From positions 1 through 36,439 of the forward strand of contig JAKITK010000031.1 in NCBI GenBank assembly GCA_021648125.1: a stretch of DNA of 36,439 nt, given 5' to 3'. The notes below the pieces were generated by a model. The model saw only the letters and a list, made by a program, of their open reading frames with translations, searched no databases and was not told the DNA's origin. Both the position numbers and the translations under genes were made by a program. The stretch is from Lysobacterales bacterium (GTDB lineage: Bacteria; Pseudomonadota; Gammaproteobacteria; Xanthomonadales; SZUA-36). Below, piece by piece: positions 15,085-36,315 of the stretch (its first letter is position 1; each line of letters opens with the position of its first letter).

Positions 15085-15393
15085 ATGGGAGTGTTTTCCG
15101 CTGTCGCTGTGTTAGGTCCAAGACAATGTGGAAAATCAACACTGCAAACCAATCTCGACTTTAATTTTTACCGGACAAAAGTTCAATCTGAAATAGACCT
15201 GATTATCGATGGACCATTTGGGTATATTCTAGTAGAAATAAAATTAGGGGCTAAAATCAACAAAAGAATACTAACTGCCTTAAATATTTTTATTGCAGAT
15301 ACTAACTGCAAATTTGGGATTCTAGTCAATAATTCCGAAAGAATCGAAGTTATTGATCACAAGATTATCCAGATACCCGCTATTTATTTTTAA
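15085..15393 (+). pseudogene. Internally deleted AAA_14/DUF4143 ATPase remnant
   Basis: The 102-codon frame joins two distant parts of an AAA_14/DUF4143 ATPase. Residues 1-20 (GVFSAVAVLGPRQCGKSTL) are the Walker A start. Residues 27 onward (FNFYRTKVQSEIDLIIDGPFGYILVEIKLGAKINKRILTALNIFI) are the nuclease-like C-terminal end. Known: complete members are about 380-400 residues, so roughly 270 residues including Walker B and most of DUF4143 are missing, apparently by an in-frame deletion. The family is common, often acquired horizontally, and mostly of unknown function. The base composition is more AT-rich than the neighbours. It stands between the rsfS end of a conserved block and the terminator of the suf operon, a likely insertion hotspot. 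A functional product is unlikely. Confidence 0.75.
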
Positions 15394-15499: not shown

Positions 15500-15531
15500 A
15501 AAAATAAGGGCAACTGTTTCCAGTTGCCCTT
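15500..15531 (-). terminator. Intrinsic terminator of the suf operon
   Basis: On the minus strand a perfect 11-bp stem AAGGGCAACTG / CAGTTGCCCTT closes a GAAA tetraloop and is followed directly by ATTTTTG. It lies 215 bases beyond the stop of the last suf gene and is the first such signal met by the suf transcript. On the plus strand no T-run follows, so it should act in one direction. Confidence 0.8.
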
Positions 15532-15532
15532 G

Positions 15533-15594
15533 CCCCCTGAGCAGAACCCCCATTGTGCTCATGAGCCTACTACCCCTACAGGCTCCCCCCTGTA
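15533..15594 (-). ncRNA. Candidate structured RNA: hairpins with G-rich loops upstream of the suf terminator
   Basis: Three further stems can be read. TGAGCA/TGCTCA lies at 15538-15561. GAGCCT/AGGCTC lies at 15563-15585. TACAGG/CCTGTA lies at 15577-15594 and is mutually exclusive with the second. In each, the loop on the minus-strand RNA contains a run of four or five G, with another five-G run between hairpins at 15533-15537. With the terminator this makes a compact structured unit that is either the 3' end of the suf mRNA or a small RNA with its own or a processed 5' end. On the plus strand the loops would instead read CCCC. No known RNA family was recognised; strand and status are inference. 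Confidence 0.35.
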
Positions 15595-15745
15595 TGTTTG
15601 ATTGTGTATTAACAATCCCTTCATATACCTACTGTCGGGAATAGCCGAATCCTCTCACTTGATTTTGAAATTAATTTTATTTTCGGTATTTACGCTATCT
15701 TGTTAGTGCTTGGGGAGTGTCAAAGGAATGTCTGAGGTGGGTGAT

Positions 15746-16066
15746 TTAATCCCAGCGATCATCTCGGGTCCAGAGGCTGTCAGCTTCTATTTTTACCGGA
15801 AAAACATCAACCGGCTCATAGGCTGGCGGAGTTAAAGCAGCCCCAGTCTTAAGACAGAAACGCGCGCCATGACGCGGGCAAATAACTTCACAACCTTCGA
15901 CTTTACCACTGGCTAGTTCACCACCGTCATGGGTGCAGATGTCTTCTATTGCGTGGTATTTACCGGCAACATTGAACACTGCAATGAGAACATCTTCCAC
16001 ATCGACAACCTTCCAGCTGCCTTCGGGTAATTCGGAGATACTGCAGACACGGGTCCATTCAGTCAT
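15746..16066 (-). CDS. Rieske [2Fe-2S] ferredoxin-like protein of the suf operon
   Basis: The 106-residue product has both Rieske motifs: ICTHDGGEL (C-x-H) and VICPRHGARFCL (C-x2-H), spaced as in soluble Rieske ferredoxins. A short C-terminal strand PVDVFPVKI follows. Known: such proteins carry one [2Fe-2S] cluster bound by two Cys and two His and pass electrons, for example to non-haem oxygenases. Similar small Rieske genes occur at the end of suf operons next to SufU-like genes; their role there is not established. It starts 30 bases after the sufU-like stop and is the last gene before the terminator. Confidence 0.88.
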   Translation of the reverse strand: MTEWTRVCSISELPEGSWKVVDVEDVLIAVFNVAGKYHAIEDICTHDGGELASGKVEGCEVICPRHGARFCLKTGAALTPPAYEPVDVFPVKIEADSLWTRDDRWD

Positions 16067-36132: not shown

Positions 36133-36315
36133 TTGCTTGTTGTTGAAAACATTAAGGTCTCAGAAATAAAAAGTGCATATGCTACATTCGGTTTCCTTCG
36201 TGGTAGCTGGCCTACCAGCTGCTATATTGAAGCAGTTACCAATGAGGGTAAAAAAATAGAGATTGCAGTAGACTCTTCAGGTAAAACAGCCGAGGTATTG
36301 CATGCAAGCAGCTAA
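36133..36315 (+). pseudogene. PepSY-like reading frame cut by a group II intron
   Basis: A short frame reads VENIKVSEIKSAYATFGFL...CYIEAVTNEGKKIEIAVDSSGKTAEVLHASS. The second half resembles the tail of PepSY-like repeats (xVEVxxxDGxxxxVxVDxxTGxV). Its TAA (36313-36315) straddles the intron boundary at about 36314, so the natural C-terminus may lie beyond the intron outside the window. The start is unclear: a TTG at 36133 without a ribosome site, and the frame is open back to 36073. It is most likely a gene fragment. Confidence 0.35.

Follow-up and report, generated by a model that had tools for sequence, protein, structure and literature searches.

MicA, RybB and MicL are sigmaE-dependent small RNAs of enterobacteria, and MicL originates in the 3′ region of a protein-coding gene (PMC8103513, excerpted text). 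FoxI and FoxJ are sigmaE-dependent small RNAs of Fusobacterium, with FoxJ measuring approximately 156 nt (PMC11005410, excerpted text). A further described system, CASP, is made of Cas7-11, the TPR-CHAT protease Csx29, the inhibitor Csx30 and the sigma factor CASP-sigma, and in it Csx29 cuts the sigma inhibitor; the excerpted text describes no small RNA output (PMC10028731).

We analyzed a stretch of 36,439 nt from a Lysobacterales bacterium (the window), in which a cluster of hairpins lies on the minus strand behind the suf genes. We consider it quite likely that the cluster belongs to a stand-alone small RNA gene of approximately 120 nt, which would depend on an ECF sigma factor and act in trans with the assistance of Hfq. 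Like MicA, RybB and MicL, the RNA is predicted to be the output of an ECF sigma factor from a promoter of its own, and like MicL, it stems from the region at the 3′ end of a protein gene (PMC8103513, excerpted text). It differs from these three in its ECF sigma factor, in its promoter sequence, in the lack of an Rfam match and in being G-rich. As with FoxI and FoxJ, it is predicted to serve an ECF response as a non-coding arm in an organism distant from E. coli; compared by description, the seeds there are C-stretches, whereas the RNA here is G-rich (PMC11005410, excerpted text). An ECF-sigma-dependent small RNA, as predicted here, is thus known in kind, and what would be new is the regulator and the sequence of the RNA.

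Architecture of the hairpin cluster

The last gene of the suf cluster encodes a Rieske-type protein (minus strand, 15746–16066; the ORF and its name were read from the sequence) and lies directly upstream of the element. Every part that the earlier note had listed, namely the stems, the alternative pair, the G-runs and the terminator, is present on the minus-strand RNA. Hairpin A (TACAGG/CCTGTA, loop GGGGAG) occupies positions 15594–15577, and its alternative, hairpin B (GAGCCT/AGGCTC, with GGGG in the loop), occupies 15585–15563; the two exclude each other. Hairpin C (TGAGCA/TGCTCA, with a G-run in the loop) lies at 15561–15538 and is followed by a run of five G (15537–15533). The cluster ends with an intrinsic terminator, made of an 11-pair stem (15531–15506) and a T-run (15504–15500). 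The feature is larger than the interval 15500–15594. A first hairpin, GATTGT/ACAATC, at 15617–15600, was found in the folds of the predicted mature RNAs, and a promoter-like block begins at approximately 15658. This block consists of GTGAGAG (15658–15652, −35-like), a spacer of 15 nt and GACAGT (15636–15631, −10-like), and we predict it to be an ECF-sigma promoter (15658–15631, minus strand). The predicted small RNA, approximately 120 nt long, spans 15624–15500 on the minus strand; its start is placed 7–11 nt behind GACAGT (15624–15620), and its end lies in the T-run. The terminator (15531–15500) is probably the common end of the small RNA and of read-through from suf.

The minus strand folds over 130 nt with an energy of −49.9 kcal mol−1 (z −4.98), and none of 200 shuffled sequences was equally low. 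By z, the plus strand folds better (z −6.67). A C-rich reading of the plus strand had also been proposed; it is less likely, because the long stem has a T-run behind it on the minus strand only. On the plus strand, a 102-aa ORF (15085–15393) lies between the element and the next gene and resembles, by eye, a remnant of an ATP-binding protein. Elsewhere in the window, the minus strand at 36315–36384 matches a group II intron (RF00029, 44.9 bits, cut-off 40).

Conservation and structure of the element

Four genomes make up the genus set: that of the window (G000), G001 (60% complete), G002 and G003. The element is present as a single full-length copy in its own genome, where the seven other matches are short pieces; a REP-type repeat element is ruled out by this single copy. 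BLAST located the element in three of the four genus genomes, including that of the window, and gave no match beyond the genus among 39 family genomes (the three hits in 39 being these same three). A covariance search in relatives had been proposed as a check, and it recovered the element throughout the genus: a model built from the three genomes also matched G003 (E 5.8e-9), for a total of four out of four. The same model had no significant match in the 35 other family genomes. Nine weak rows (E 0.03–0.44), five of them in other genera, were set aside; six (L057–L062) share no common blocks as compared by eye on one strand, and two (L063 in G001:C150 and L065 in G000:C7) fall on other sites of the upstream block. 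A second covariance model, built from all four sequences, found nothing more in 394 other genomes of the order (E 0.05, stricter filters).

The element lies behind the Rieske gene in G000, G001 and G003, and it was also seen behind the same Rieske-type gene in QIKG01000031.1 (L012, MAG Oceanospirillales bacterium SZUA-51). When the window was aligned with G003, the element scored z 11.0, the interval from the Rieske stop codon to the block z 0.0 and the 100 nt downstream z −0.4; the flanks are therefore not conserved between these two genomes. In G002, approximately 120 nt separate the element from the start of its contig, and the gene that follows is convergent; we take it to be fusA from its reading. 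The Rieske gene of this genome closes another contig, and in the 178 nt that remain there, both the block and the core GCCTGTA are missing. There may be an insertion between the two. Inverted copies of a repeat, GGTGCGTTACGC / GCTAACAGCA, were noticed by eye at both of these contig ends (L011 1–60 and near the end of L013), and they are possibly the reason the G002 contigs break there.

The predicted mature RNAs of the four genomes are 120–123 nt long and fold with z values of −5.9 (window), −5.4 (G001), −5.3 (G002) and −5.3 (G003); in each genome, none of 200 shuffles was equally low. The window and G001 are nearly identical, so the four homologues amount to three distinct sequences. The terminator stem carries two two-sided (compensatory) changes and one one-sided change. 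Hairpin B shows one-sided changes only, and its one broken cell is due to G002 being misaligned by one base. Covariation support for the structure is mild, because 50 of 500 shuffles reach the same score, and thin, because only three distinct sequences contribute. The compensatory changes to which the earlier note had looked thus speak mildly for the structure, and both of them are in the terminator stem.

Hairpin B can form in all homologues (as GGGCCU/AGGCUC in G003). In the lowest-energy folds, hairpin A is chosen in the window, G001 and G002, and hairpin B in G003 alone. The position of the first hairpin is occupied by AGCAC/GTGCT in G002 and by AAGCA/TGCTT in G003; these are different stems and not column-by-column covariation. 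A simple terminator scan flags two of the four loci (L077 and L086). The other two fall below the T-count of the scan: at the locus of G001 (L080), the T-run reads ATTTTCG, and at that of G003 (L087), the stem absorbs part of the T-run. The 250 nt that follow the block at each of the four genus loci contain no ORF of at least 60 aa starting from ATG or GTG, and the shorter frames are unmatched between species by eye. A small protein inside the element was rejected on these grounds.

The upstream block and its recurrence

Both halves of the block are identical in all four genus genomes. The spacer is constant at 15 nt and differs in sequence. The block is the most constant part of the whole feature, and when the pattern is lengthened to include the AGG that follows, it finds the element alone in each genus genome. 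Allowing up to one mismatch, the four genomes contain 27 matches to the block and 6 to the reversed pattern. Seventeen of these 27 sites form five groups that recur in two to four genomes. The first group is the small RNA itself (four genomes). The second is an anti-sigma-like ORF right behind an ECF sigma gene (four genomes). A 173-aa ORF or its counterpart forms the third (four genomes; L082, L076, L096 and L083); it adjoins a 392-aa ORF, and the one copy scanned (L082) had no Pfam or NCBIfam match. The fourth, in three genomes, is an ORF with a likeness to TolB_N/CadC/FlgO that is below cut-off and was seen in one copy; its frame breaks off at 83 aa in G001. One more group recurs in two genomes. 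The remaining ten sites include two inside long open frames (L098 and L101), and the others stand before ORFs of a single genome or before nothing obvious.

The recurrence of the block bears on the best-surviving alternative, in which the element does no more than close the suf operon as its 3′ UTR and terminator, with stems that end or protect the transcript, and any short RNA would arise by processing. The element is on the same strand as the Rieske gene and directly behind it in G000, G001 and G003, and no other minus-strand terminator-like site was found between that gene and the element. This would fit a plain operon end. However, a conserved block stands between the gene and the RNA and recurs before unrelated genes, and the interval between the gene and the block is not itself conserved. 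The arrangement in G002, where the element starts a contig other than the one that ends with the Rieske gene and its 178 nt without block or core, also argues against it. We regard this alternative as unlikely. The suggestion that a small RNA arises at the suf 3′ end has therefore come through in part: the sequence supports its existence (an element that is structured and conserved in four of four genomes, with no ORF of at least 60 aa), and its derivation from the 3′ UTR is weakened, because the element has a conserved block of its own that recurs before unrelated genes and adjoins the ECF sigma gene.

Tie of the block to one ECF sigma subgroup

The gene before the anti-sigma-like ORF in G003 (L079) is an ECF sigma gene by profile (TIGR02937 59.9 bits, cut-off 42.9; PF04542 34 bits). 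Copies of this sigma factor show identities to the protein of the window genome of 89% (G001), 84% (G002), 69% (G003) and 39% (G107, a genome of another family). A scan of 398 order genomes for the exact block gave 27 matches, spread over 11 genomes, and the reversed control gave 4. An ECF profile at E 1e-15 or better picks out 67 of the 398, and all 11 genomes with the exact block are among them. The probability of this overlap is 1.5e-9 when kinship is ignored and 2e-6 without the genus; counted by genus, it is 0.013, or 0.038 if the genus of G107, a genome that contributed its protein to the profile, is left out. Several exact matches in GC-rich genomes overlap open frames, and such sites need not be promoters. 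In two loci of one genus (L103 in G290 and L118 in G383), the exact block stands before an ATPase frame, presumably an OLD-type nuclease from its looks.

The tie was also examined directly at 30 ECF loci, the best matches from part of the 67 genomes; 28 of them could be anchored. With up to two mismatches, the block is present near the ECF gene in 17 of the 28 loci and absent close by in 11. Of the 17, the block lies within −60 to +250 of the sigma stop codon in 11 loci and 1100–500 upstream of it in 6. When the five loci that had suggested the link are left out, the block is found at 12 of 23. Letter-permuted blocks reached a mean of 0.29 and a maximum of 3 loci in 150 trials. Spacers of 12, 14, 16, 17 and 18 gave no loci. 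The 7 loci with a spacer of 13 probably reflect the repeat in GAGAG, which also matches when shifted by two bases. Several of the loci come from a shared genus, so they are not independent observations. The conservation and structure of the element, the recurrence of the block and this tie to one ECF subgroup are all computed from the genomes.

These counts also weigh on a second alternative, in which the block is the operator of an ordinary transcription factor working with sigma70, and not an ECF promoter. By eye, GTGAGA agrees with TTGACA in four of six letters and GACAGT with TATAAT in three of six. Nevertheless, the block is asymmetric with a spacing fixed at 15, its clearest genomic tie, across families, is the ECF sigma gene, and a scan for sigma70-type promoters listed no site at the block (none was convincing by eye either). 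We therefore find an operator highly improbable. Judged from titles and the beginnings of abstracts, none of the papers listed was about GTGAGAG-N15-GACAGT, and none of them named this subgroup of ECF sigma factors, a promoter for it or a small RNA among its members.

The ECF sigma operon

The operon was read in L152 (G000:C18:1-6500), L153, L154 and L155, and in three genomes the reading went far enough. G002, G003 and G107 share the order of an ECF sigma factor, a protein with one hydrophobic segment and a large TPR-CHAT protein, with one more ORF between in G107; the G000 contig ends within the TPR part. The protein with one hydrophobic segment is an anti-sigma-like candidate by position and shape, and the copies scanned from G000, G002 and G107 had no Pfam match. 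The CHAT domain scores 188 bits in G002 and 178.4 bits in G107. Motifs of the HFATHG/SACDTG type, with His and Cys, occur in the TPR-CHAT proteins of G002, G003 and G107. These proteins also have an N-terminal hydrophobic segment (residues 53–79 in G002, 43–67 in G003 and 5–32 in G107, in the frames as read). In the genus, the longest frame of the anti-sigma-like protein begins 2 nt behind the block, which misfits a transcription start 7 nt behind it. An in-frame ATG lies 38 nt behind the block in all four genus genomes, and it is the more plausible start of this protein if the block is a promoter.

In its genes for an ECF sigma factor, a candidate inhibitor and a TPR-CHAT protein, the set resembles CASP, where such genes are encoded together (PMC10028731, excerpted text). 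It differs in that the CHAT protein here carries a hydrophobic segment close to the N-terminus and the candidate inhibitor contains one hydrophobic segment. No CRISPR genes were noticed among the ORFs of L152–L155. Tentatively, and with considerable doubt, the operon may be a membrane-linked relative with the logic of CASP and no obvious CRISPR part. In such a system, an exported or membrane-anchored TPR-CHAT protease would sense damage and cut the membrane anti-sigma factor, which would free an ECF sigma factor with a dedicated small RNA among its output. If true, a pathway run by a caspase-like protease would have a non-coding RNA as one of its arms.

A second stretch of this kind was found in G117, a genome of a different family. 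On the minus strand of L109, from 1501, hairpins come after an exact block, and a strong terminator (GAGCCGGG..CCCGGCTC, with seven T) begins 83 nt behind the block. By eye, the stretch is not similar to the RNA of the window. It may be another small RNA candidate, unrelated to the first and belonging to a regulon of the same type. It may instead be the leader of the next gene, because a 71-aa frame overlaps it and another, long frame starts immediately after the terminator. Should it prove to be a small RNA, output of this type may recur in the regulon.

G-runs in the loops

The densest G-run spot in the window is the hairpin cluster, with four runs of at least four G within 100 nt. An equal density on either strand was reached in 61 of 200 dinucleotide shuffles of the window, so the clustering as a signal was set aside as within chance. 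A G-quadruplex was likewise rejected: the minus strand of the window has no motif with runs of at least three G and loops of 1–12 nt, and the gap between the second and third G-run is approximately 21 nt. The G-loop of hairpin C is kept in G002. G003, the most distant homologue, has another hairpin there, with G-runs between the stems, and therefore G-runs in loops are not the conserved property. The emphasis that the earlier note had placed on G-run loops, a G-quadruplex and a protein-binding array is not borne out, given the missing motif, the chance clustering and the G003 loops.

Although the window and G002 do carry several G-runs in loops, an RNA that sequesters CsrA, a G-quadruplex switch or a protein-binding array of G-loops is hardly tenable: the minus strand of the window lacks a quadruplex motif (loops up to 12), hairpins B and C of G003 have no G-run in their loops, no GGA was seen by eye at a loop position common to the window, G002 and G003 (so that the repeated GGA in conserved hairpin loops of the CsrB/RsmZ type was not found), and the window has no CsrB-type match, with CsrC in L011 reaching just 12.3 bits against a cut-off of 61.

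Searched against Rfam 15, the element of the window gave nothing at the gathering score and nothing at E 5 or better. The locus L011 had 20 sub-threshold matches, with a lowest E of 0.015 (MicX, 20.1 bits against 75, on the opposite strand), and the locus L056 had 3.

Proposed mechanism

In the small RNA reading that we prefer, RNA polymerase with the ECF sigma factor (gene in G000:C18) would recognize GTGAGAG-N15-GACAGT at 15658–15631. Transcription would start near 15622 and stop at the terminator (15531–15500). The structured RNA of approximately 120 nt would probably act in trans with Hfq, its unpaired G-rich segments pairing with C/U-rich stretches of target mRNAs. The RNA would thus be the non-coding arm of the ECF sigma response. 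The role of the block as the promoter of this sigma factor, together with the transcription, Hfq binding, mode of action and targets of the RNA, is what we infer.

An ECF-type promoter is predicted directly before the RNA, as judged by sequence only (block conserved in four of four genomes and tied to one ECF subgroup). An intrinsic terminator with a T-run closes it, as expected of a small RNA, in a set where the simple scan flags two of four loci. The hfq gene is present in three of the four genus genomes and was not found in the 60%-complete G001. Against the small RNA reading, the order genomes searched gave no homologue of the RNA outside the genus, although the block is present in other families. 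In addition, the preferred stem is A in the window and B in G003. G-rich seeds are unusual for trans-acting small RNAs.

The element is most likely more than the tail of suf and has the look of an RNA arm in an uncharacterised stress response, because the operon of the ECF sigma factor itself also encodes a putative caspase-like protease. A cluster of hairpins thereby becomes a testable regulon, made up of an ECF subgroup with its predicted promoter, a partner protease and a small RNA as output, and the block would serve as a promoter motif for finding more members. Small RNA arms have been described for sigmaE; one in an ECF/TPR-CHAT system would link caspase-like proteases to post-transcriptional control.
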